IMG/VR virus record: IMGVR_UViG_3300050343_000298
Coordinates: 1-33,701 of that record
DNA from: a virus
DNA length: 33,701 bases
Strand: one strand, 5' to 3'
In this document: piece after piece, positions 5,964 through 33,701 of the stretch
Layout: each line of letters starts with the position of its first letter
Position numbering within the stretch: the first letter of the stretch is position 1
Notes under the pieces: generated by a model
Told to the model about the DNA's origin: nothing
Seen by the model: only the letters and a program-made list of their open reading frames with translations
Databases searched by the model: none
Position numbers and translations under genes: made by a program

Positions 5964-7578
5964 TTATGTGTTGTAATAAATATTTGTTCCTTTTGTAATC
6001 AGACTGTTATAAGCTGCTATAGCAGTAGATGACCACGTTGAATAAGCAGCATTAGTACCTCCGTTTACATAGATATTAGGCACAACATTAGTGTTAGTAT
6101 TAAAAGATACAAGTATATTTTCAATAGATTGTGCAGTTAAAGCACAGCCATTAAACTGATATCGGTGTTGATAACTTAAACTACTTAAAGCGCCAGTATC
6201 AAACACACCAGCTGGGAAATTAGCCAAACTGGTACAACCATTAAACATTTCGTCAGTAATTGAAATAGAACCCCAAGTAATACCTGAAGGAACTGTTACT
6301 AATGAATTACACTGTTCAAACATTTCTTCCGCATCTGTTGCGGATGAAAAATCTAAAGTTGAAGGCAATGTTGTTAAATTATAGCATTGTTGAAACATAC
6401 TTTCTGTGGTTGTAATGTTTGAAAAATCCCAATTAGGAGCAGTAGTTATGCTAGTATTTTGGAAAAAAACCTTGTAAACTGGGAATAATAGAAAGGTTTA
6501 AGTTAAGCGTACTTGTGCTCGGCATATTAGAATCTGTCAAACCTGTGGCATTTGAAACATAGAATTCACATTCATTAAGTTAGAATAGTCCCAATTTGGT
6601 ACAGTAAAGTTTTGACTTAGGTATCGAAATAGGTATTGAGCAATAGTGCAATTTGAAATATCTAAATACGGAAAAGTAGTAAACTGTGTAAGCCCCTGAC
6701 ATAAACCCGATATGTTAGTTATGTTGGACGGTAGTGAAGTAAGCGGGAATGAAGTAAGGCTAGTACAGTTAGCAAAGAGAAAACTTATATTGTTTGTGTT
6801 ACTAAAATCTAATGTTGGTATTGATGTTAAGTTGGTACAATACATAAACAAACCGGTGATGCCTGTTGGCGCAAAATTAGTTAAAGTTGGAGCCGTTGTT
6901 ATGTTAGAACAGTTCCTAAACATATAAGAGGCATTAACTAAATTTGGGCAGTTATATGTCGGCAAATTGGTAGAAGTAATACTAGAACACCTATAAAACA
7001 TATAGGTTGTATTCTCTGCACTATCTAATTTAATATCTGGAAATTGCGTAAGTGCCGAACAGTCTCGAAAAACATAAAAAAAATCAGTTACATTTCTTGT
7101 ATCGTAAGCAGGGACAGGTAGTAATATTATCTACATCATAAAATGCATACATCATATCAGTAACATGTTCTGTATTAACGTCTGGCATACCATCCGTTGT
7201 TGTTTCAGTCATGTCATAAAACGCACGGGCCCAGTTGCGCCCTCTTTGTTTTGTTGAACCAGTTATAGAAAGAGTACGTGTGTCAAAATGTGTGTTATTG
7301 CTACAATAAAGTGAGAACGAGGCGTTGCGTTCAGTTGAAATTCTTACAACGTAAGTTCCTGATGTTGAGTAAGTATGTTGATACTCTTTATAAATAGAAC
7401 TGTCATTTGTAGAGCAATCTAAGCCAGTTTCAATATTACCGTCACCCCAGTCAATAGTTACAGTTCCGCCATAAGCTCTTACCTGTGGGTGATATGTGGA
7501 AGTGTCAGATGTTGTTGTAAATTCGTAATAACGATCTTCAAATTTTTGTGATGCTAATAGGCTTTGTGCTAATAACAT
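5964..7578 (-). CDS. PKD-like plus BspA/DUF285 leucine-rich-repeat adhesin, frameshifted
   Basis: Coding starts at a TAATG overlap with the tail-fibre stop (ATG 7578) and ends at TAA 5966-5964. The first part has a PKD-like beta-sandwich (VTIDWGDGN and HTYSTSGTYVVRIS). The rest is a series of BspA-like repeats with the pattern MFxxCxxLTxxPxxDFSxxT, for example MFYRCSSITSTNLPTYN, LFMYCTNLTSIPTLDFSN and MFQQCYNLTTLPSTLDFSS. Three small indels break it: near 7101 (CCC), near 6545 (A-run) and near 6467 (T7 run, one T too many). Repair gives one protein of about 537 residues. BspA-like repeats mediate surface binding in bacteria, and its place directly after the tail fibre suggests a virion receptor-binding or decoration protein, as inference. 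Confidence 0.78.
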
Positions 7579-10500
7579 TACGAAGCATCTCCACCATAAG
7601 AACCGAATAAAGTTGTGCCTGCTTTCCAGACAGTGATAATTGCATATGCTGTTGATCCTGTAGGCAAGATAGGTTGTGACCCACCAACCCATTTAATAGT
7701 TGGCCAAGTAATGCTATGATTTACACTACTTCTACTAACCATTATTGTAACACTTTCGCCACTATCCATATCATCAGTATAAGTACGATTAGCAGTAATT
7801 TGATCAATTAGCATCGTCCCGTTATCGGGGTTAATCGCAAAGTTAGTGTTAAGGCTTGTTGTGTCAACAGTCGCCGCTCCACCACTACCGCCAGAAGCAT
7901 CAGCCCAATAACCTTCACCGTTACTGTCAGCGGTTAAGACTTGGCCTGTTGATGGCAGTGAAGCGTTATCTTTAAGGATAAAATTTATGCCCGGAACACG
8001 AAACTTGTCAATACTTGTGTTTCCTATAGTAATTTCGTCATTAACAGTAGTAGTACTTGCTTGAGCCTCGTTACCAATAATAATGTTATTTTCCCCTGTA
8101 CTACCAGCCGCACCAACAAGCTGATCTCCTGCGTTGTAACCTATAAATGTATTATTATCACCCTGGGCTAAAAGACCTGAATTAGCGCCAACAGCAGTGT
8201 TGGAATCCCCAGAAGTGTTTCCGAAAAGACTTTTAGACCCTATAGCTGTGTTAGAGCTAGTAGCTGTTGCTGCCTCAAGAGCCTTTGTGCCTACTGCTGT
8301 GCAGAAGTTAGATCCTGTACTACTGAGAAGAGAGTACGCTCCAATTGCCGTAGAATAGATATTGTTATGACCTGTCGAGGGGGCAGTACTACCCATTCCA
8401 GACAAAGCTCTGTAACCAAAACTTGTGGAATTGGTTCCAGAATCATACTGTCCTGCATAAGATCCAACATGAGTAACAGCACCGGGTTGTCCAGTTGTTC
8501 CACTTAATCTTCCTGCCGAGAATCCAATATAGCAATTACCAAAAATACCACCACCAGTACTTAAAAAGCTGTAACCAGCATTAGAACCAATAGCAATAGA
8601 ACCAAAAGAACTAATATTTGAAGTAACCATGCTCTTAAAAGCATCTAAACCAATAGCAATATTTCCATGTCCAGCAGTAAGCTCTGTTAAAGCATTAGCA
8701 CCAATAGCAATATTATGACCACCCGTCGTTGTTTCTGCATCTAGTGCTGTTGAAGACCCAATACCTATACTGGTAGAATTACCGCTACTATCTGTAATTC
8801 CTCCAGATGATGACCAACTTAAATTACCAGAACCATCAGTTGTAAGTAACTGATTAGAGGTTCCCGTATCATCAGGTAGGGTTAAAGTATAACTAGCAGC
8901 CGCACTATGTGGAGGTGATTTAATCTTTACACCATGAGTATTTTGCTCACAATTGAGCTGAATAGCAGCATCATTACCTGTATTACCTTTAATTTCAACA
9001 ACGCCAGTACCATCTGGAGTTAGCTTGATATTACCGTTAGTAGTGCTAGTATTAATTTCTTGTGCTTGTACATCTAAAGGACCACCAAGCTGTGGTGCTG
9101 TATCTTCAACGACGTTAGCAATTGCTCCAGTTGCAATACCTGCAAGCTTTGCTGCTTCACCTGCTGTTGTAAATTTGTTAGTTGTTGATGTATCTGAAAT
9201 ATCATCAGCATCAAGCACTACTACTCCGGTCTGGGTATTAACGCTATCAACTGCACCACCACCACCACCGGATTGTGCAACCCAGTCGTAATCGGATCCA
9301 GTCCAACTAAGGACTTCATTACTAGAAGCAGTAGAGGTATTTAGGTGGGTGTCAACCGAGCTATCTGTATAAGCAGCTGGGATGGTGGGTTTATTAAGAA
9401 TCTCTGAATCACCACTGGATGAATTCCAGTCAGCATTTACATTAACTTCTGCGCCTGCGGCAACACCGCTTAATTTGGTCTGTTCGGCATCTGTAAATGC
9501 ATTGGTATCAGCATTGTTTTCGTAAGCAGTCTTAATCTCAGCGTCCGTTTGATCTGCAGTAGCTCCCGTTTCAATACCATCTAGTTTTGTACCATCAGTT
9601 GCAATATCACGTCCATCAACAGTACCAGTAACAGTAATATTACCAGTTACAGTAGTATCTTTGAGGTCTACAGTTTCAGAAACTTGGTCAACTACAAGTG
9701 TAGTACCAGCTTTAAATTTGCCAATGTGATCAGTACTGGACAGCCAGACTTTTCCTCCATTAAGCTCAATAGCTTGGTTAGCTTCAATAGCTTTTCCACC
9801 TTTGTCAGGGTGATCACCATAGTTAGTACCAACTCCAACATATTCAAACGTATGCCCACCGGTACTGATATAAGAACGTAGCGAAAAAGAAGTTGATGTA
9901 TTACTTATGTTTTGGGATAGTGCTGGAGTAATAGTTACATCCCATCCACTTCCATTTGCTGTACTACTTACAACACCATAATCATTACCATCAATGGTGA
10001 TCATCATGTGGTCTAGAGGTTCTGTAGCTGTTACATGGTGACCAGCTGTAGTGGTCAGAGCACTAACAGTTACTACAGTTGCTCCAGTACTCGCTGCACT
10101 TGCAGTAGCTGTGGCAAATGTGTCCCCATGGCCATCAGCAATTAAGCCATATCTTCCAAAGTCACTTACACAATTGCTTAGGTTGACTTGACCACCATTC
10201 TTAGCTTTTGCGTGATAATGGGAAAAGGTGCCAAAAAAGGAAACTAACTGTGCATAACCGTTGTTAGTAACAAGGATACCAGGACCATCAAGCGTGATTT
10301 GAGTAAAGGCGTCCACCACCATGCTTCTAATAGGGCTAGCTGACGAACATGCGCTGCCATCCACCAACAAACCGCCTGCAGAAGGCGCGGAGGTTTGGTC
10401 TCCTGCTACAGCACTGTAAGTCTGAGAATCAGTTGACGGAAAACTATTTGGGTCAAAGTTTGCAATGTCTAAATGAGCATCGCTGAAGTGGGTGCAGTTC

Positions 10501-12148: not shown

Positions 12149-15100
12149 TTAGCGTAGAAACTCGGCTCTTCCTTGAGGCGTGCTAAGCCTTTGCATAAGT
12201 TGTTGATTACCTGCTTTGCTTGCAGATGTTATAACTTCTCTTAATTCAATACGTTTGTTAAGGTCTTTGTTCTCTTGACGTAGTTTGATCATTGCTAAGT
12301 CTTTAGCTGCTCTAAATTCTTGATCAACTAATTGATAAAACTCTTGCTGGTAAAGCTTGTAGCCTGTCTGAATGGTAAGGTTTTTCTCTTTGTAAAAGTC
12401 AAGACCTTTCTTCCAGGTCGAATCAGTAACCATGACTTTTTGTAGCCTACGCCTTAAGTCACCCATTGACATGTACTTACTTAGTTCAGACTGCTCTTGC
12501 GCGTTAAGAGGTTCACCTTTGTATTGAGACATCATTTCAGGTAAATTATACCTCATCTCAACCAAGCCTTGTCGGATAGGATCATCTTTTGCTTCAACAA
12601 TAGCAACAGGAGAGAAAGCATTAAACAGTCGTAGCAAGGGGTTTACTGCTCCGAATTGAAGAGGCTTGCCTGAACGGTCTTCATTTAAGATATCATACTT
12701 AGGTGGTAAGGAGCTTTTAGCAAAAGCGTCACGACGTATAAGTATCTCGGTAAACTCTTCCGCTTCTTTACGGTTAGCGTCCATAACGTCCCCTACCTGT
12801 CCTAAGAGACCAGCATAAGGTAGGTGTGCTCGTGCCATCTTTGCTCCAGTCCTCATGAGTGCATCTTCTGAAGTATCAGAACTCATAACGTCAGCAAGGC
12901 TTTCAATACCAGAGAGCATTGACTTATCAACAAGAACAGCAGCTGTCATAAATGTCAGCTTCTTGATCATGTTATCAGTCATTTTTTCCCCTAAAATATC
13001 AGAGTTCTGGACCACGTTAGCAGTCATAGAGAGGAGTGTGTTGAACGGCTCAATGTTCTGATAAGACACATACTTATCGCCTAGCTTGAAGGAGTAAGGT
13101 TGGATGCCTGCTGCTTGCCACGCATCTCTATCTTCTTTGGTATAAGGATAGTCGCCTGTCATATTACCAGCCATAGCTGCAATAGTAGCCATGCCCATAA
13201 TACTAGAGCCCATTGCTATCCTACCTTCCATCAAAGCCTGAGCTTGAGGGAGATCTTCAGGACGAATGCCATACTTAGTAAGGTTCTTTCCATTCATAAT
13301 GTCTTGATACCTATCACGGAACACCACTAAGGGGGTGTGCTGGAAGGTGAGATCAAGGGCATTAAAGCCTGTACGTACAAAGGGAAAGAACGCTTTCATA
13401 CCAGGAATATTAGAGATAAGCTCAAAGCCTTTGAAGTTTTCTTCTAATGCTCGTGTCATGGCAGCTTCATCACCCGCCATCCTAGCAGCTTTATCTTTAA
13501 CAACAAAGCGGTTGTTCTTGTCTTTTTTAAAGATCTGTGATCTAAACTCTTCCTCAGTACTACGTGCAAACTTCTTAATATTTGAAGGATCAACACCTTT
13601 ATCCAATGCTGTACGAGCTGCTCGCATACGCATCTCCATACGACCAATAATCGTACGAGCTAAGGCGTCACCAGCTCCCATAGCATTTTGGCTGTATTTA
13701 AACCAAGGATTGGTATTCATCTTGACAATACGGTCAAGAGTTTCATAGCCAACTTTCTCAGCTGCAGTACCATACTTATCATAGTACTGGCTTAAGCCCT
13801 GCCATTCAGCTAGATCAGCTTCAAGATCAAACTTACCTTCATAGCTTAAGGTCTTACGGTTAAGACCAAGGTCCCAATTGTACTTAAACATGCGGAATCC
13901 TTCTGCATACGCAGAGCCAAGGGCATCAATCTGAGCAGATGCAAGAGCCATCTCTTTTTTATTGAAGCGCATAGAGGCTCCCAGAAGAGCTTGGAATGGA
14001 CGTAAAGTTGCTACAAGGTTAGTACCAAACACAGCTTTAACAATAGTTCTCGGACCACTCAGCACAGAATTATAGAACGTGCTTTGTAGTTCTTGACGTA
14101 AGCGTCCTTTAATAGCCTTACCATCAATCTTACCACCTACCAGTTGTTTGCGTAGATAGTCATGGATGTGCTCCATTGTACGGATGTTACCGTTTGTCAG
14201 AGCATTAAGTTCTAATAGGTCTTTGATTTCTTGCTTACGGCCTTGCTTGCCTAGCTCCTTCAGGGCATTCCTGAACTCTTTCATCTCAACATCAACTTGC
14301 CTCAACCCAGCCTTAGCTGCCTCAGAAGCTTCTTTAGGTACAGAACCTAGTTGCTGTAGTTGACCGTCAAGACCCCACATGTAGCCCATCTTCTTATGCT
14401 CAGTCAATGCTACAGTCATAGCATCGATTGTCATGTCGTACTGACGATTGATGGGAACATTGTCTGCAATAAACATAGTACCATTAGCAATAGCAGAAGC
14501 TCTATGAGCTAAAGAATTGATAACGATATTAAGAGCAGCCTTTTCAGTAGGAGATCCAGTAACAATCTCTACACCATCGTTTAAGTAAACACGAGCATTC
14601 TTCGAACGACCTTGAAAGTACTTACTAAAGTTTGCAGCAATGTCACCACCTTCATCAATCATGGAGGTCATGTCAACAGCTTGCTTCAGGTAAACCTTAA
14701 CAAGATCTTTGTAGTCAAGACTACCAATACCTTCTAAATCACCACCCTTTTGGAATGCTTTTTCAGCAAGGTCTTCAGCTGTCTTAACAACAATAGCACG
14801 TAAATTCTTATCACCACGAGTCATAGTATGAAGCTCTGAGTCTGTCACTATTTGTGTATAGGTGTGACCAGGACCACCAGCTTTCATATCATTGATAGTT
14901 TCAGCAGCTGCTTCTCTAGCACTACCTGCAGGAATCACAGGATTCTCTGTCATGTCGTACTTAGCAGGATTGGTATAACCATCAAGGCGTCTACCAAGGT
15001 TTTCTTCAGGATCAGTTCCTCTGATACCTTTACCTTCTTTGTAGTTTTGATCTCCTACTTCTTTGACTGTAGCGTTTTCTTTGCTACTGCCTTCAGCAAG

Positions 15101-25613: not shown

Positions 25614-25964
25614 TTAGAAGGAGTATTTTACACCAGCTTTGGTGCCATAGCTATTGACATCATCAAAGGCAGCTGACAGCTCACCATAGATAGATACATT
25701 TTCACTAGCGTTGACAGAGCCAAAGATCTTACCAGTAAGTTTGGTTTCTTGCTCACCAGCATCAGGAACGTACAAGGTAGGACCAGCTTGAAGACCCCAG
25801 CTACCTACATCACCGCTACCTTCGTAGCCAACGTGGAAGTCTGTAGCATGGCCTTGGAAGTCAGAGCCAGTAAAACCAGCATTGTTCTCAATGTTAGCAT
25901 AGGGACCTGCGATTGCAGGAGCAGCAGCAAAGAGTAGTGCGGAGGAAATAGCGATTGTTTTCAT
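25614..25964 (-). CDS. exported outer-membrane beta-barrel-like protein
   Basis: 116 residues: signal peptide MKTIAISSALLFAAAPAIA cleaved before GPYANIENN, then alternating beta-strand-like segments (ATDFHVGYEGSG, SWGLQAGPTLYVP, KLTGKIFGSVNASENVSIYG, ELSAAFDDVNSYGTKAGV) ending in KYSF. A C-terminal Phe on an amphipathic strand is the usual signal for insertion by the outer-membrane assembly machinery. This looks like a small porin-type barrel or barrel fragment placed in the host outer membrane late in infection. Similar proteins occur, as I recall, in cyanophages. The ATG overlaps the previous stop as ATGA. Superinfection exclusion or altered permeability are possible roles, both inference. 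Confidence 0.72.
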   Translation of the reverse strand: MKTIAISSALLFAAAPAIAGPYANIENNAGFTGSDFQGHATDFHVGYEGSGDVGSWGLQAGPTLYVPDAGEQETKLTGKIFGSVNASENVSIYGELSAAFDDVNSYGTKAGVKYSF

Positions 25965-26095
25965 GGTTTTGTTTTTGTTTTGGGTTTTTTGCGGATGATC
26001 GCGAGATCAGATCGTGTGATTTCTTTGTAAGGCTTGCTCACAGCAGCCAGTTTCTTTTGCTTACGAGAGTAAGCTCCGTAGTTACCTTTAGGCAC
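25961..26095 (-). CDS. 44-residue basic protein (MPKGNYG type)
   Basis: GTG start at 26095 overlaps the hli stop (TAGTG), and the TGA at 25963-25961 overlaps the next start as ATGA. Sequence pieces: PKGNYGAYSRKQKKLAAVSK then PYKEITRSDLAIIRKKPKTK. It is very basic and probably partly helical. Small proteins beginning MPKGNYG with a QKKLAAV centre are, from memory, conserved in cyanophages next to hli or capsid genes. Function unknown. The coupled start and stop on both sides support that it is translated. Confidence 0.62.
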   Translation of the reverse strand: MPKGNYGAYSRKQKKLAAVSKPYKEITRSDLAIIRKKPKTKTKP

Positions 26096-26214
26096 TACCA
26101 GATACCAGGGATTACTTGGCCAGTTAAGACATAGGCTCCTACAGCTGCAACGAAGCCTAGCATAGCCAAGCGTCCGTTGAGTATTTCAGCCTTTTCACTT
26201 TGTGTTCGATACAT
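26095..26214 (-). CDS. hli: high-light-inducible protein (Hli)
   Basis: ATG at 26214-26212 to TAG at 26097-26095 gives 39 residues. The core AEILNGRLAMLGFVAAVGAY is the chlorophyll-binding ExxNGRxAMxGF motif of the Hli/LHC family, followed by the diagnostic tail LTGQVIPGIW. Hli proteins are single-helix thylakoid proteins that bind chlorophyll and protect photosystem II, and phage copies help keep the host photosynthetic during infection. It begins eight bases after the scaffold gene stop. psbA, a frequent partner in cyanophages, is not found beside it. Confidence 0.95.
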   Translation of the reverse strand: MYRTQSEKAEILNGRLAMLGFVAAVGAYVLTGQVIPGIW

Positions 26215-26222
26215 GTTGTTGA

Positions 26223-27104
26223 TTAAACTTTAATGTTAGAGCGTTCAAGTTTACGCATCACATCCATGCGATACGCATCATCATTGTCATAGCGAGGATC
26301 ATTCATGTCACGAACAACCTCTGCCATACTACGATATGCTTGGCCAGTTGAAGACTGTTTACCAGTCACTAGCTCAGGAGTACGTCCTACTGCATCTTCA
26401 TACTGACCGACTAATGCCTTAACAGCAAAGCGGACAGCAGCTTGATTAGCAGTATTAATTACTTCATCAAATGCTAGTACATCTTCTTCAGGGAGATTCT
26501 CTGAAGCCCACTGAACTACTTCAGCGTAGCCTTGATCACCACCAGCAATATCTTTGATGTCACTAATCTCTGATTCAGACAGAACACTAGCAGCATCATC
26601 ATATCCTAGTTCATTACGAAGACCACCAAGGTAAGCATCAATGGTTTCATCAGAGAAGCCAGCTCCGTTGAGCTGGTCATACATCTCCTCAGTAATAGTA
26701 CCATCATTTTCATAGAAGTGGTCATTCATTTCCCAAGGGTCAATGTTTGCTTCAGCAAAAGCTGCTGCAAGACCATCGCCATAAGCTTCAGCTACAGCAT
26801 CTTGATTGACATAACCTTCATCATCATAGCGTTCAAAGTCTCCTTCTACTTGCTCTGTGTCTCCTTCTTCTGCTTCATATTCTCCACTATCATCATCATC
26901 ATCTTCCTCACCTCGACCCTGCATACGTTGCAGTTCAAGGTAAGCTTTCTCAAGTTCTTCAGCGTTTTTATATTTACCAGCAAGTAAGTCTTGCTGATCT
27001 TGGATCATCTTCTCGCCTACTTCAAGGCTGTCAGCCTCTTCGGCTTCCCTAGCTGCAATAGCTTCGGGATCATCAGATGGATCGTATGCAATGTTAATAG
27101 CCAT
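26223..27104 (-). CDS. capsid assembly scaffold protein (gp9-like)
   Basis: A 293-residue, highly acidic protein (MAINIAYDPSDDPEAIAARE; EEDDDDDSGEYEAEEGDTEQ) with a central alpha-helical part and a basic C-terminal end (DVMRKLERSNIKV). Acidic body plus basic capsid-binding tail is the hallmark of T7-type scaffolds, which direct procapsid assembly and leave before packaging. It lies directly after the portal and before the capsid-proximal genes, as in T7. Strong assignment from order and composition. Confidence 0.92.
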   Translation of the reverse strand: MAINIAYDPSDDPEAIAAREAEEADSLEVGEKMIQDQQDLLAGKYKNAEELEKAYLELQRMQGRGEEDDDDDSGEYEAEEGDTEQVEGDFERYDDEGYVNQDAVAEAYGDGLAAAFAEANIDPWEMNDHFYENDGTITEEMYDQLNGAGFSDETIDAYLGGLRNELGYDDAASVLSESEISDIKDIAGGDQGYAEVVQWASENLPEEDVLAFDEVINTANQAAVRFAVKALVGQYEDAVGRTPELVTGKQSSTGQAYRSMAEVVRDMNDPRYDNDDAYRMDVMRKLERSNIKV

Positions 27105-27118
27105 AGGTGCTAGTTAAA

Positions 27119-28751
27119 TTAACCAGGGGGAGGAGTAGCAGGTCCAGGTGGTTGTTGCTGTTGCTGTCCACCACCAAGGAGTCCTTGAGTAGCAGACGTG
27201 ACAGCTTCAATAGCCTGTGGGTTTTTAGATGGATCCATGAGCGGTGTGCCCATAAGTTGTCCAGTTTGATTAACGATAGAAGCCTGCATCTGTTGCTGCA
27301 TAGCTTCCTGTTTATCGGCTTGTATTTGTTCCATACCTTTGACAAGGTTAAGAATATCGATACCTTGAGCAGCAGCAAGACGCTTGATAGCTTCGTCAGG
27401 GTTGAGGTACTGAGCCAATGCTTGTGGTCCCATTGTTTGAGCAATGGTAGTAACAAATTGAATCAAAGACTCACGATCCTGACCACGGCCAAGAGCATTG
27501 ATACCTGCAACAATCGTAGGATGAACAAGACCTTTAGGTAAAGCAGGGATCTGCTTTGCTTTAGTAAGGTCCAGCATCTTACGACTTAGATAAGGAATTA
27601 GGAACTCGCTAGTCAGCAAGGAGAATAAGCCTCCAAGCTGCTGCTCTAGTTCCATCTGTGTCATCCTAACTTCTTCAGCTGTGGTTCGCTCACTCTGTCT
27701 TACATTAAGAATGAGGAATGCTTCAGAGATACGCTTCTCTAACACACCAGCCAAGTCAAAGGCAGTACGGAAGTCAGCTTGTTTCTGAACCTGAACCACA
27801 CCAATGTCATCAGGACGCCCTTGGATGATAGCACCATTACCAGCATTAGCCAAGGACTGAGGTTTAGTTGTAGAGCTAGGTGATACAGTAAAGACCACCT
27901 TAGCTGCTGCAGCAGAGCCCTCTACAAGCGCCTGCATTAGGGCTTCAAGAGAGCGTAGGTCTCCTAGGAACTCTTCAACACGAGAGCGTCCGTAGTCCTC
28001 TCCATCAACTGTTACGAAGCGGAGTGGTAGCCAAGGGCTCTTGTCTTTTGGAGCTTTACCATAGGTGTTAGGTAGGATCTTATCATCAGCTTCCTGATAC
28101 CAAGTCCAACCCTTCTTAGTTAGTTTAACACAAGTAAATACATCTACATCCTTCTCAAACTTACTACCCACACTACTGTCTACAGCACTTTGCATAGACT
28201 TAGGGGCTTCAAACTCAGCACCAAGCATCTTACGATTGACCCTTTCACGAGTTACAATCTCAGTTACATTACCGTTGCCGTCCCTCTCTACCACATAACG
28301 GTTGAGAGGATACATCTTCATACCATCCTTGTGCATGTAGAGCAAGGCATTACCAGTAACCACAAGGTGTTTGATAGCTGAAAAGATTTGAACACGATCA
28401 GTAGAAGCAGCAATGCTTTCCATAATCATGCGCTCAATCTTAGCAAAGCTTAAATCCAACTCACTCTTTGCTTCAGCAGGAATCTCAACTCCTAACTTGG
28501 AGTCATCCAGCTGTAGCTTAAAGAATGAAGTAGAAGGAGGTAGCAACCCTAACATCAGTTTAGATGATAGAGTCACTACCCCCCTTTGCTCCTACTGATT
28601 GCCAAGGAGTTTTAAACCGAGTGTAATCGGTTGTAGTCTCCTCATGCATCAGCAGGGTTGGGATTGTAAGCTTAGCACAATCAAGTGCAATGTCAAGAAA
28701 TGCAGTACGGCCACTCGTTAATTCGTGATAGCGTTGCCGTGCACTTTTCAT
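27119..28751 (-). CDS. portal / head-tail connector (gp8-like), one frameshift
   Basis: Starts MKSARQRYHELTSGRTAF at 28751 (TAATG with the previous stop). As given the first part stops after TPWQSVGAKGGSDSII at 28560. Deleting one G of the G6 run at 28579-28584 joins it to VVTLSSKLMLGLLPPSTSFF, giving one protein of about 543 residues. Family features: YTRFKTPWQSVGAKG, LPPSTSFFKLQ, KHLVVTGNALLYM, PLNRYVVERD, GRSRVEEFLGDLRSLEALMQ, SERTTAEEVRMTQMELEQQL and a Gln/Pro-rich tail. The dodecamer forms the DNA entry ring of the head. The break is most likely a sequence error. Confidence 0.94.
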
Positions 28752-28999
28752 TAGTTACCTTGTCCGATGTTCAAACCTTGACCAGGAGCAGTCTGTAAGG
28801 ATGCAGTGCCAGTACGAATACGTTCACGCTTCTTAGCAGTAGGTGTCTTGGTCTTCACCTTAGTCTCTTCTTTTTTAATAACCTCTGCCGGTGGTGTAGG
28901 CTTAGGCATAGGTGTATCAATTTTCTGAACAGGCGCTGGCGGTGGTGGTGCCTGTGGTGTAGGTGCTGATGGACGGGATCCTCCTCCTCCAAAACACAT
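28751..28999 (-). CDS. gp7.3-like small protein before the portal gene
   Basis: Best start MCFGGGGSRPSAPTPQ at 28999, five bases after the nrdB stop (TAA), giving 82 residues. A Gly-rich N-terminus, a proline-rich stretch (PTPQAPPPPAPVQ), a basic central part (KTPTAKKRERIRTG) and an end LQTAPGQGLNIGQGN. T7 gp7.3 is a small basic protein immediately upstream of gene 8 that ends in a Ser/Gly-Gly-x-INI motif, so position and C-terminal feel agree. T7 gp7.3 is a virion protein needed for adsorption. Similarity is weak outside the tail, so this is a moderately confident analogy. Confidence 0.62.
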   Translation of the reverse strand: MCFGGGGSRPSAPTPQAPPPPAPVQKIDTPMPKPTPPAEVIKKEETKVKTKTPTAKKRERIRTGTASLQTAPGQGLNIGQGN

Positions 29000-29003
29000 A
29001 GTC

Positions 29004-29801
29004 TTAATCCTCAATGAATTTTTCTTTTAAGTATCTGATGACAGAAACCTGACCAGCTCTATAACAAATCTCTTTATCAGAGAGCAGGTAGTCAGGATAT
29101 TTGTCTGGGAATAACTGATGTTCAAAGAACGCTGGCATCCGAGCTGATCGTGTGTCAGAAAGTTCAGGTGCTTTGCCTTGATACATTAACGATCACTAGA
29201 ATCTAGCCAAAATTTTTTATCTAAATTTTATCGGTAGTATTAATACCTAGTGGTTGCATTACCCAATTAATAGTTGCCTTCCTCAGTTTATCAAGAGAAG
29301 GAGAGGCACTAAGGCCCAGCTCCTTGCAGACAATTGAGTTGGCACGCAACGTGGATTTGTTCATCTCTGCTAATGTCGGCCGACTTACTGTTCGCATTCC
29401 AGCGTCACCATGAGCGCGAAGGAAGGGTAAAAGAACGAAGAAAATTGCACGCTCGGCAACCATCGCTTTGAGGATCGTGTGATCAGGATGCGAAGTCCAA
29501 GCTTCTCGGAGCCAACGCTTCCTCTCAGCTTTCTCATCAACGCCGTAAGCATTGGCGATGTAAGACAAAGCCAAGTCGTGGTTTTCTTCGTCTTTGACGT
29601 TGGATAGGAGTAACTCCCGTGCCAAGTCTGGAACGTCATTGGCCAATGCATCAGTAATAAAATCTCCCACAGGTAGTTCCATATGTCGCATTGCAAGGAC
29701 TCACGGAATAGGTCTCCTTGTTCCTTGTTTGCTGTACCAGCTGTTGTCTGTACTGGTGTCCATTTTCTTTTTCTTGATAGTAGTTTTTGATAAGGGTTCA
29801 T
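29004..29801 (-). CDS. nrdB: ribonucleotide reductase beta subunit (NrdB), frameshifted
   Basis: ATG at 29801 overlaps the repaired nrdA stop as ATGA; end at TAA 29006-29004. The sequence NPYQKLLSRKRKWTP, DLFRESL, then ELPVGDFITDALANDVPDLA, the first ExxH in VKDEENHDLAL, AERAIFFVLLPFLRAHGDAG and a C-terminal KAPELSDTRSARMPAFFE outline a ferritin-like R2 of about 265 residues. The second metal motif ADISRDEQIHV lies near 29375-29345 in a different frame, hidden by two compensating indels; further breaks occur near 29690, 29218 and 29174. At the position four residues after the first metal-binding His, where class Ia enzymes have the radical Tyr, this protein has Leu. That suggests a Tyr-free cofactor. 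It supplies the radical to NrdA. Confidence 0.82.
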
Positions 29802-31176
29802 TCTTGACAATCACATTGAGGTTCTAAGAACTGTTGTTAAACAGGTCAGCAAGATAGTCATCAACGTCTTGCTTCATCTAGTGCAGCATAAGCATCTGTT
29901 TTATCTTGTGTATCTCCCATTACTTGGAGTGAGTAATATAGGGAGGTCTGCGGGGACCGTAGCCACTCTTTGACAAATTCATTGTCATAGGTAACTTATC
30001 ACTCCAAGAGTTGATGAATAGCCGTGAAGAAGCCCTGTAGATTGATACATAGTCATGTCATGATGCCATCGGCAACTCGTTTATAATTTTCCCAACCTAC
30101 TTTGATGCAATTTCTACATCACCGTAGTTGTAAGTTTGTACTCCGAAAGTACCTGAGTCGCGATCGACTGTCTGCGAGATAGGTGGAGCGATTTCTGGTG
30201 TGCAAGTATAGCCATCCAAATCCACGCTTCGATAACTGCAAGAGGCGGTTGGAGCGATAGCAAAGGCTCGAACCATATTATTAGCCCGAGCGATTGAGGC
30301 TGCTTGTTCAATTCCTGAAGCAATTTGAGAGACAAGTTCATAAGATGCAGAGCGGATAATTTCACCAGAGTTGTATTGTTCTAATGCCCTACCAAATTGT
30401 TCGTATGTTACTCCGTACCTCCGAAGGAGATTAGCGAGTCCCAGTACTCCGAGACCGACTTGTCTATCAACTTCTGAAGGTAAGTACTCCCCTGTTTCTC
30501 CAACACCAGTTTTAGAATGGAGACTGCACAATTCGGACATACCTTCAACGTAAGCTCGTGGAATGTCATCGAACTCACAGGCACCGAGGTTAATATGTTG
30601 GAGCAGACAGGTTCCTCTTGAAGGTAGATACACTTCGAGGCAGACATTCCCGAAAATTCTTTGTCCATTGTCGTCATACCTTACTTTGTTGAGCCAGATG
30701 TCGCCTGATTTGATTCCGTGTAGTAGATCGTCTTTAAACGTACAACTCTCCCACCAGGTCTCGGTGACATTGATGCATCTCTTGACCCAGGGGAGTTCGG
30801 ATCTAGGAGTATTGATAAACTCCCTAGCATCGCTATGGCATAAATCCAGATGCAGGACAATCGCACCGTTCTTATAAATCCCGCCCCGTCGTAATATTTC
30901 ATTTAAGTGCTGAATAAATTTTACCAAAAGAAACGGGACCAGATGCAACTACACCTGACTCCCTGACATAACCCTTAGGGTCAAGTTTAGATAGGTGGAT
31001 AGCACAACCTGCTCCATACCTAAGGGCATGACTAGCAAACCTCCAGCTGGCTTCGATACCATTAGGACCTTCCATTTCATTTTCAACTACAAACACGTAC
31101 AGCTGACAGGTAGACGTCCTGTAGGATCATCCATCCAAGATTGAACCCGTCCAGTGCGGGAGATTAAATTAGTCAT
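29798..31176 (-). CDS. nrdA: ribonucleotide reductase alpha subunit (NrdA, short cyanophage type), frameshifted
   Basis: Makes dNTP precursors from ribonucleotides. The start MTNLISRTGRVQSWMDDPTG is at 31176, one base after the upstream stop. Key residues: first redox Cys in PVSCT, KDPKG-like KLDPKGYVRESGVVASGPVS, NEILRRGG, the N-x-C-x-E radical motif in GNVCLEVYLPSRGTC, LGAC (second redox Cys), and SYRSVDLDGYTCTPEIAPPI. The C-terminus is rebuilt from other frames: VGWENYKRVADGIMT, YSFNSWSD, EWLRSPQTSLYYSLQV and a final QCDCQE, whose Cys pair is the expected re-reducing tail. Frame breaks occur near 31096, 30902 (one extra A), 30100, 30055 (ATGAC repeated), 30020, 29990, 29870 and 29825. The repaired length, about 452, matches short cyanophage NrdA, once called class II. 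Confidence 0.88.
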
Positions 31177-31177
31177 T

Positions 31178-31720
31178 TTAAATTAAGTCGTTGAATACTG
31201 CTTTCTTAAAGTTTGGTCCCTTTAGAACCTTCCCATCACCTCTGTAGATAGGCTTACCGTCTTCTCCTAGCTTTGACATGTTCGCTCGGTGAACACGTCT
31301 CATAGCCTCGTCTAGGTCCCAATCCTGGGATGCTGCATACTGAAAGCATACATAGACAAGATCAGCTAGTTCATTTAGTTGGTTCTCTTCTGGTTCGTGG
31401 TGATATGCTTCGTGGAATTCACTCCACTCTTCATCGATCAAACATTTCTGGGTCTGTCGTCCACTCTTCCCAGTCGCAGCAAATTGTAGGCTGTTCGGAA
31501 TTCCTCCGCTTGGTCCAGTAAGCTCTGATTCATATATTGTTTGTTCAAGTTCATGTTGTAGGTAGTGGATTGCTTTGGTTAAGTCTTTTATTTTGTCGCC
31601 TTTGAATTCACATCGGCAGATGTATTTGACTGCATTAGCTTGAAAGAAACTTAGGTTCTGTTCAACTATGAAGTCTCCTACTTTCCAGTTGTTTCCGTAG
31701 TGTTCGGGTGAGAAGGCCAT
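31178..31720 (-). CDS. DUF3310 domain fused to MazG-like NTP pyrophosphohydrolase
   Basis: An intact 180-residue protein with two parts. Residues 1-60 (HYGNNWKVGDFIVEQNLSFF, NAVKYICRCEFKGDK, DLTKAIHYLQHELE) match DUF3310, a small helical domain common in phages. Residues 85-160 match the MazG/PRA-PH all-alpha pyrophosphohydrolase fold: CLIDEEWSEFHEAY and NELADLVYVCFQYA provide the EExxE and ExxD metal ligands, followed by DLDEAMRRVHRANMSKL. Such enzymes remove pyrophosphate from NTPs, or may lower ppGpp, changing host nucleotide pools. It stands just before nrdAB, so a nucleotide role fits. The N-terminus overlaps the possible extension of the NblA-like gene. Confidence 0.85.
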   Translation of the reverse strand: MAFSPEHYGNNWKVGDFIVEQNLSFFQANAVKYICRCEFKGDKIKDLTKAIHYLQHELEQTIYESELTGPSGGIPNSLQFAATGKSGRQTQKCLIDEEWSEFHEAYHHEPEENQLNELADLVYVCFQYAASQDWDLDEAMRRVHRANMSKLGEDGKPIYRGDGKVLKGPNFKKAVFNDLI

Positions 31721-31727
31721 TGTTTTA

Positions 31728-31862
31728 CTAGTTGGGATACGTTGTTCCTAATACATAACACTGTTCTTGTAGTGCCATGAATAAGGTAATGATGTCAGCT
31801 TTATCTGCTTTAGGCAGTAAGTCTTCAAGTCTTCTCATCTTGAATTCTTGTTCCATTGTCAT
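31728..31862 (-). CDS. NblA-like phycobilisome proteolysis adaptor, C-terminus frameshifted
   Basis: ATG at 31862-31860 overlaps the exonuclease stop as ATGA. The given frame is 44 residues: MTMEQEFKMRRLEDLLPKAD, then KADIITLFMALQEQCYVLGT and TYPN. The pattern L/M-EQEF-x-x-R-x-x-E, a middle acidic/Lys turn, then a second helix fits the two-helix NblA family, whose members bring phycobilisomes to the Clp protease. Inserting one base near 31741 replaces TYPN by TVSQLVKQWPS, giving the L-x-x-QW end expected for NblA-like proteins and about 60 residues ending at 31678 inside the MazG-fusion gene. Phage NblA proteins are known from freshwater and marine cyanophages. The family call is by eye and needs a profile search. 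Confidence 0.62.
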   Translation of the reverse strand: MTMEQEFKMRRLEDLLPKADKADIITLFMALQEQCYVLGTTYPN

Positions 31863-32200
31863 CTTAGCGAATCATCAGCTTCAAGACCCTTACGAGTTAC
31901 TGTGCTGTAATTCTTTTCACACCAGTTTACCAGGCGTTTGTAACCCAAAGGCTTGCGCCGGTTACGGTGACCCTTATAATCTGGATAGATTTTTTTCCTA
32001 AAGTTTTCAGAGCTTGAGAAATAAAGGACAATATCATTATCCAGCATATCAGTCTGTATTTTTTGCAGCTCACGCTCAAAGATCCGTAGAACTTGGCTGA
32101 AGTTGGATTGAGAAACGATGACATCATCACCGAAATCAATACCTTCTTCACACGCTTGAGCTGCTTTATAAGCAATGTAGTCGGTGTCTAGTAGAAGCAT
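31859..32200 (-). CDS. 5'-3' exonuclease (gp6-like), C-terminal half missing
   Basis: Starts MLLLDTDYIAYKAAQAC at 32200, sharing bases with the polymerase stop (TAATG). The 113 residues match the N-terminal half of T7 gp6: first acidic site LLDTDYIAY, then DNDIVLYFSSSENFRKKIYP, DYKGHRNRRKPLGYKR, TRKGLEADD (second acidic cluster). It then stops with SLR. The rest of the FEN-type fold, including the third acidic cluster (DKDF in T7) and the C-terminal DNA-binding helices, is absent in all frames here; the next gene starts at the same ATGA. T7 gp6 is about 300 residues. Either the gene is truncated, or a segment was lost, for example between two GATGAT/Asp-Asp repeats. Confidence 0.85.
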   Translation of the reverse strand: MLLLDTDYIAYKAAQACEEGIDFGDDVIVSQSNFSQVLRIFERELQKIQTDMLDNDIVLYFSSSENFRKKIYPDYKGHRNRRKPLGYKRLVNWCEKNYSTVTRKGLEADDSLR

Positions 32201-33701
32201 TAGTGTACTTGAGCCCAGTTCTCCCCAATCTTTGCGTCTGCATCGATAGGAATCCTGAGCTTATAATAATCGCCAGCCATAGCAGCTGACGTGGTGCAGA
32301 TTGATGCAACCTGATCGGCTACATCGGGTGGACAGCCAAGGGCTTGCTCATCATGTACAAAGGCGTACCTTTCATGCTTGATGCCTTGAAGTCTATCATG
32401 AGTGATTAGTAGCCAACGCTTTGCCAGAACCCCAGCCGATGACTGGAGCAAGAAGTTCAGCGCCTTGTGGGGCGAGTCAACAAGGATCTTACGCTTGTCA
32501 ATAGATAAGATAAACTCTTCTTTCTTCGCCTTCCCCCTGACCGCCTCAACGAGTTTTTCCAAACCCGGAATGGCGTCAAGGTATGCACGACGGATCGCCG
32601 CACCTTTCTTACGAGCCTGATCTTCAGTAAGCTGGGGGTCGTAGCTTGTGCCAATTTTAACATCGGATGCCCCATAAAGAAACGCGTATGTGATCGTCTT
32701 GACAGCCCTACGGCTGATGCCGATCTTGTCAGCATTGACTTGATGGATGTCGCCATTAAGAAGGATGTCCGCATAGCGTCCTTTGTCAAACGGTGCTAGA
32801 TAATGTGCAAATATTCGTAACTCGATGCCAGCTAAGTCACTGTCCACCAGCTTCCAGCCAGGACGTGTGATGAATAGTGAGCGACAATCAGGGTCACTTG
32901 AAACCTGGGCCAAGTTGGGACGTGCATGGGCCATACGATGAGTAGCAGCTCCAATAAAGCAAGAGTGGTGAAGCCTGTCATTCTTGACCAACTTCAACCA
33001 CGCATTGTTGCCTTGCGACAGCATTCCTAGCTTCTTCTGTGTTACTAAGATTTCTAAGAATAACAATGCTTCCTCTAGTCCAATCTCTTTTAAGACAACC
33101 TCATCAATGACAGGTTTTTGTGTCTCTGTGAGCTTCTTAAACTCATAACCGTGGTGCCACTTAAAATAGTGAGCAATGTGATCACGGCTGCTTGGATTGA
33201 ACTCCTTAACACGGGTCATGCTAGCCCCTTCAATGTAGCCATGAGTCTTGTTATCACGCTTTGGTGTAAACTCATTACCAGGCACAGCCCAGCAAAGCTT
33301 CTGAGCGGTCTCTCTGAGGCGCTCTAAGCGTGTTAGAAGAGTGTTCTCTAGCTCTTGGGCAGCACGAACATCAAAGGGCCACCCTACGGCCTCCTGAGAG
33401 GCCATAAGCTGAGCAATCTGATGCTCTAAGAAGACGGATTCAGGTATGTTTGGAAGTGGTTCCATAGTTTAACGAGGACAGTAACATCTTGGACACAGTA
33501 AGCTTGCATCTCTGGAGACCATTGTCCCCAGTCAGCTTGCTTACCAAACTCATCTTTATGACACTTGAGACGATAGCCCCAAGCCTCTAGGCTATGAGAG
33601 CCATAGAGTTTAGCAGGCATCATAGTGTATTTCTTCTTTAAGTCCACCTCGCGGAGGTTGGTACAGAAGAACCTACTCAAGATGAGTGTGTCTATTTGAT
33701 G
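32200..33701 (-). CDS. T7-type DNA polymerase (gp5-like), 5' end outside window, one frameshift
   Basis: Family A replicative polymerase. The window holds the last part of the 3'-5' exonuclease domain (LYGSHSLEAWGYRL, YCVQDVTVLVKLW) and the whole polymerase domain. Motif A is DSDLAGIELRIFAHY, motif B is RRAVKTITYAFLYGASD and motif C is YAFVHDEQALG with the catalytic Asp; the C-terminus IGENWAQVH matches T7 (GPNWAICH). The frame shifts by one base between about 33430 and 33465, where KLWNHFQTYLNPSS ends in one frame and PESVFLEHQIAQLMA continues in another. An intein or split gene is not indicated because no residues are missing beyond the shift. It replicates the phage genome with host-like thioredoxin as possible partner. 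Confidence 0.95.

Follow-up and report, generated by a model that had tools for sequence, protein, structure and literature searches.

An nblA-like gene interrupted within a foreign segment of a mosaic cyanophage contig

The minus-strand open reading frame (ORF) at positions 31728-31862 is best explained as an ordinary cyanopodovirus nblA lying in a mis-assembled stretch of low accuracy, a reading to which we assign a probability of roughly 0.85. The window, i.e. the whole stretch of DNA analysed, comprises 33,701 nucleotides of the IMG/VR virus record IMGVR_UViG_3300050343_000298. The ORF has 44 codons and its translation is MTMEQEFKMRRLEDLLPKADKADIITLFMALQEQCYVLGTTYPN; an intact gene would encode a protein of about 60-80 residues with a helix-loop-helix fold.

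The nblA-like ORF and its relatives

The sole Pfam match of the 44-codon ORF was PF04485 (NblA), with 20.7 bits and an E-value of 0.00056. The preliminary description had recognised an NblA-like pattern from the letters of the sequence alone, and the profile search returned the same family, but at a score below the Pfam gathering cut-off of 25 bits, a value that the nearest intact relative (IMG/VR contig 3300046754_000300, referred to as G002 or L097) does not reach either (23.9 bits). The ORF also matched phrog_27006, a family of unknown function, with an E-value of 2e-13. A tblastn search with the ORF matched 29 phage records, 28 of them at a query cover of at least 80%, and these 28 records were all from cyanophages or uncultured marine phages. 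Because of the phrog_27006 and tblastn matches, we regard the ORF as a genuine coding sequence and not as a chance frame. NCBIfam profiles gave no match for the ORF and only weak matches for its family, which remained far from the NCBIfam NblA model, and the surroundings of the ORF yielded neither a sigma-70-like promoter nor a terminator.

In its relatives, the nblA-like frame is situated between the genes for a 5'-3' exonuclease and for DUF3310/MazG-like proteins. Strong relatives at this same locus were detected in 28 cyanophage records and at more than 100 IMG/VR loci, and the nblA-like frame was open in 157 related loci, some of which are overlapping records. Most of these proteins have 60-80 residues, and they have T-x-EQ, ALQxQ and a C-terminal L-x-x-x-W segment in common. 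The pN/pS ratio, calculated from 120 distinct nucleotide sequences, was 0.13 in the nblA-like frame, whereas the two alternative frames of that strand gave 1.2 and 4.5. This difference between the frames indicates that the nblA-like protein is under purifying selection. In phage 9515-10a, the annotated exonuclease directly overlaps the next gene, leaving no room for an nblA-like frame.

PF04485 was matched by 11 of the 14 family members (best E-value, 6e-7). Three relatives were above the cut-off (L002, 30.2 bits; L022, 29.3 bits; L018, 26.5 bits), L097 and the Synechococcus phage S-TIP37 (24.4 bits) were narrowly below it, and the other members scored lower. When the profile of the phage family was compared by hhalign with the sequences of solved NblA structures (3cs5 and parts of 1ojh and 2q8v), a gap-free local match with a probability of 93 was obtained; the Synechococcus elongatus NblA used as a query is identical in sequence to 3cs5. 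The phage family shares with cyanobacterial NblA (PF04485; 3cs5, 1ojh, 2q8v) the EQ-x-F motif, the helix-loop-helix arrangement, a length of about 60 residues and a profile alignment free of gaps, and differs from it in a conserved ALQxQ block and in a W that follows the C-terminal L-x-K/Q region. The N-terminal motif is also present in the window ORF (MTMEQEF), and its E, Q and F are invariant in the alignment with S. elongatus NblA. For the 61-residue intact form of the relatives, AlphaFold2 predicted a helix-loop-helix with helices at residues 3-15 and 21-48 (mean pLDDT 78.5, pTM 0.42). Foldseek with the predicted model retrieved no NblA among the solved structures and VIA-align retrieved none either, but a two-helix model of 61 residues is a poor query, and we regard both outcomes as uninformative at such a length. 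No matches were obtained when the phage profile was searched against the sequences of solved structures.

A different interpretation would be that the family comprises small helix-loop-helix proteins that share the N-terminal motif with NblA but do not function as NblA and have another target in the host or the phage. The identity to S. elongatus NblA is just 16-24%, several members are below the Pfam cut-off, and one member (L016:2001-2222, 39% identity over the window ORF) is found in NATL1A-7, a phage of Prochlorococcus, a host without typical phycobilisomes. Against this interpretation stand the gap-free, full-length profile match to solved NblA, the members that pass the curated cut-off and published work, predictive as well as functional, on NblA of marine viruses. 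We therefore consider it improbable. The NblA-like reading of 31728-31862 holds, as the family is related to NblA by PF04485 and by the profile comparison with solved NblA, and the phage protein is probably a functional NblA.

Mosaic structure of the window

The ORF lies in a foreign, gap-rich segment of the window. According to segment alignment and sliding identity, the flanks at 27033-29117 and 31866-33604 share, for the most part, about 96% identity with contig G003, whereas the segment between them (29118-31865, 2748 bp) is 93.6% identical to G002/L097. The sliding identity to G003 was 94-98% over most of 27033-28800 and over 31866-33604, and the sliding identity to G002 was mostly 94-100% at 30200-31865. 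As 29118-30200 is just 80-89% like G002, the donor of the segment, judged from this comparison, was not exactly G002. The segment has 18 gaps relative to G002, and every one of them breaks a reading frame. In contrast, no gaps relative to G003 were present in two coding stretches of the flanks (1739 and 1458 bp), and the comparison of L098 with L097, which are 94% identical, revealed a single gap in the same segment.

The gaps affect nblA, the DUF3310/MazG genes and both ribonucleotide reductase genes, all on the minus strand. The apparent 180-residue 'MazG fusion' at 31178-31720, which had been described as a neighbor of the nblA-like gene, turned out to be a DUF3310 protein and a MazG-like pyrophosphohydrolase that a frame break near 31481 has made into one ORF; in L097, they are encoded by two separate, overlapping ORFs. 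The gene for the large subunit of ribonucleotide reductase (29801-31176) has several frame-breaking gaps and corresponds to a single ORF of 458 residues in L097. The gene for the R2-like subunit (gp34, 29118-29801) likewise contains several frame breaks in comparison with its relatives, and its 3' end is absent at the left joint (29117|29118), where the relatives have approximately 76 more bases. The nucleotidyl transferase region of the T7-like DNA polymerase (32200-33465, minus strand), located in the G003-like flank, is intact (96.3% identity to G003, no gaps over 31866-33604).

At the right joint (31866|31865), the G002-like segment (31865 and below) meets the G003-like flank (31866 and above) with no homology shared across the joint, and 398 bases that separate the two sides in G003 are absent from the window. 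The 5'-3' exonuclease gene (31859-32200, minus strand) is consequently reduced at this point to its N-terminal part, which covers positions 3-109 of the 164 positions of PF02739; its 3' half is missing, and the product has 113 residues, compared to 257 in G003 and 262 in L097. The 44-codon ORF has its ATG only four bases beyond the joint, and the joint itself has therefore created the 'ATGA' overlap between this ORF and the exonuclease gene. That the 44-codon gene with an ATGA start is a natural arrangement is not supported: the exonuclease of the relatives is full-length and its end is overlapped by their nblA-like frame, and the residue corresponding to the initial Met of the window ORF is Leu in most of them.

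Three further observations concern the left part of the window. The region of the terminase large subunit (659-2250) is split over several frames relative to contig G001, and because of this split a second error-rich stretch is probably present near the left end. At 5964-7692, there are three adjacent minus-strand ORFs, two of which match DUF285 repeats, one of them above the Pfam cut-off; they are possibly a single repeat protein in pieces. The thymidylate synthase ThyX at 102-575 (PF02511, 3e-32) has its best match from profile position 56 onwards, so that the N-terminal part is either absent or encoded in a different frame.

Loss of the C-terminal end and origin of the frame breaks

The window ORF ends with TYPN, whereas its relatives go on with NNVSQLVKQW or a similar sequence, so that the C-terminal part of the second helix is absent. 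In the nearest relative, L097, the first 115 bases differ from the window ORF at 2 positions, and one extra base at approximately 31747 keeps the frame open. Its protein has 61 residues from the same start, ending with NNVSQLVKQWPSHPNTTETTGK. In the window, the same ending, followed by a stop, is encoded in another frame at 31678-31746 (minus strand), and this continuation is the C-terminal end that the 44-codon ORF lacks. A missing base near 31741 and a restored ending TVSQLVKQWPS had been suggested earlier. The window does have one base fewer than L097, at approximately 31747 and hence only a few bases from the suggested position, which supports the missing base; the ending of L097 differs from the one suggested. 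The intact form of the gene was found in three IMG/VR contigs, and the short form was found nowhere else in IMG/VR, in a search from which records very near the window may be left out. A programmed frameshift was considered and rejected, since the relatives have the gene in one frame and no gene of the segment is free of frame breaks.

These features would be explained if a 2.75-kb low-accuracy stretch of a G002-like phage had been placed, probably by the assembler, between two G003-like stretches. In the process, the exonuclease gene would have lost a part at the right joint and the R2 gene its end at the left joint, and every gene of the low-accuracy stretch, nblA among them, would have acquired frame breaks. 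A single low-accuracy foreign stretch would then be the source of the short form of the gene, of its ATGA overlap and of the MazG fusion in the window, and none of these should be taken as biology.

The mosaic could also belong to a real recombinant phage, in which illegitimate recombination brought a G002-like stretch into a G003-like phage and the genes gained in this way, including nblA, are decaying. Mosaicism is natural to cyanophage genomes, and the segment comes from a related phage and is in the syntenic place and orientation. However, all 18 gaps are frame-breaking and no gene of the segment is spared, whereas the flanks are free of gaps; the exonuclease is halved, although its T7 counterpart, gp6, is needed for growth; sequence has been lost at both joints; and neither the joint nor the short nblA is present in any other IMG/VR contig, the right joint (31866|31865) having been searched with a degenerate pattern under the same reservation about records very near the window. 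This makes a real recombinant unlikely. Slightly less probable still is its extension to a recombinant cyanopodovirus line that is losing antenna dismantling, with a replaced segment of replication genes carrying a degenerating nblA and a halved exonuclease. A genuine 44-residue NblA that works without its C-terminal end, e.g. as a decoy or a ClpC binder, is very improbable: although the ORF is delimited by an ATG and a stop codon and its product retains the first helix as well as the N-terminal EQ-x-F motif, all of the more than 100 relatives listed extend further with the conserved L-x-x-x-W segment, with the exception of one whose frame passes into the following one. Moreover, the tail can still be read in the window in a different frame, and phycobiliprotein binding is reported for the C-terminal motif (PMC4103541).

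The damaged ordinary nblA thus remains the preferred reading. Cyanobacterial NblA is bound by ClpC near its N terminus and by phycobiliproteins near its C terminus (PMC4103541), and it hands phycobilisome proteins to the Clp protease (PMC7966870). By analogy, the EQ-x-F motif of an intact phage NblA would bind ClpC and its C-terminal end would bind phycobiliproteins; phycobilisomes sent to the Clp protease in this way would free amino acids and lower light capture during infection. By the same analogy, the 44-residue form, lacking the C-terminal end, has probably lost phycobiliprotein binding.

Viral NblA in other cyanophages and its pairing with hli

NblA of phages, including cyanopodoviruses, is already known, and the locus in the window is therefore known in kind. 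In PMC9602691, nblA is reported for freshwater cyanophages and marine viral metagenomes and predicted in 14 cyanopodovirus isolates, and viral NblA is described as inducing phycobilisome loss. According to papers that cite Nadel et al. 2025 (Nature 648:434-442), viral NblA degrades light-harvesting complexes and harms host photosynthesis. The NblA published for marine cyanophages (Nadel et al. 2019; Nadel et al. 2025; PMC9602691) belongs to the same family in cyanopodoviruses, and an exact match of the loci is likely. As viral NblA is known and globally discussed, one further member adds little. The nblA-like frame between the exonuclease and DUF3310/MazG-like genes is, however, often left unannotated in finished cyanophage genomes, such as S-TIP37, S-RIP2 and S-SBP1, which affects annotation-based counts of the gene. 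The gene was therefore rightly called 'hidden' as far as many records are concerned, but not with respect to its family, which has been published.

Comparison with intact loci illustrates what the window has lost. In the T7-like Synechococcus phage S-TIP37 (MH540083), an unannotated frame at about 12524-12706 is 68% identical to the window ORF over 44 residues and, as in the window, is located between the exonuclease and DUF3310/MazG-like ORFs. Unlike in the window, this frame is intact and includes the C-terminal end, the exonuclease has 257 residues, and the DUF3310 and MazG-like ORFs are separate. Similarly, G002/L097, to which the window segment 29118-31865 is 93.6% identical, differs from the window in that its nblA-like frame runs unbroken over 80-82 residues, or 61 when counted from the shared MTMEQ, all neighboring genes are intact, and the exonuclease has its full 262 residues.

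An intact hli gene for a high-light-inducible protein is present at 26095-26214 (minus strand) in the same record as the nblA-like ORF. The combination of the two genes had been taken to suggest that the phage both dismantles light antennae and protects photosystem II. The hli gene, however, is outside the foreign segment that bears nblA, so this idea cannot rest on the window contig, which by itself cannot show that the two genes belong to one genome. The pairing is nevertheless real in the isolate S-TIP37, whose genome combines the nblA-like frame with hli and psbA, and the antenna-plus-photosystem idea is supported independently by this phage. Near hli, at 25614-25964, the window encodes an intact beta-barrel resembling a cyanophage outer membrane protein (PF24653, 2e-37).
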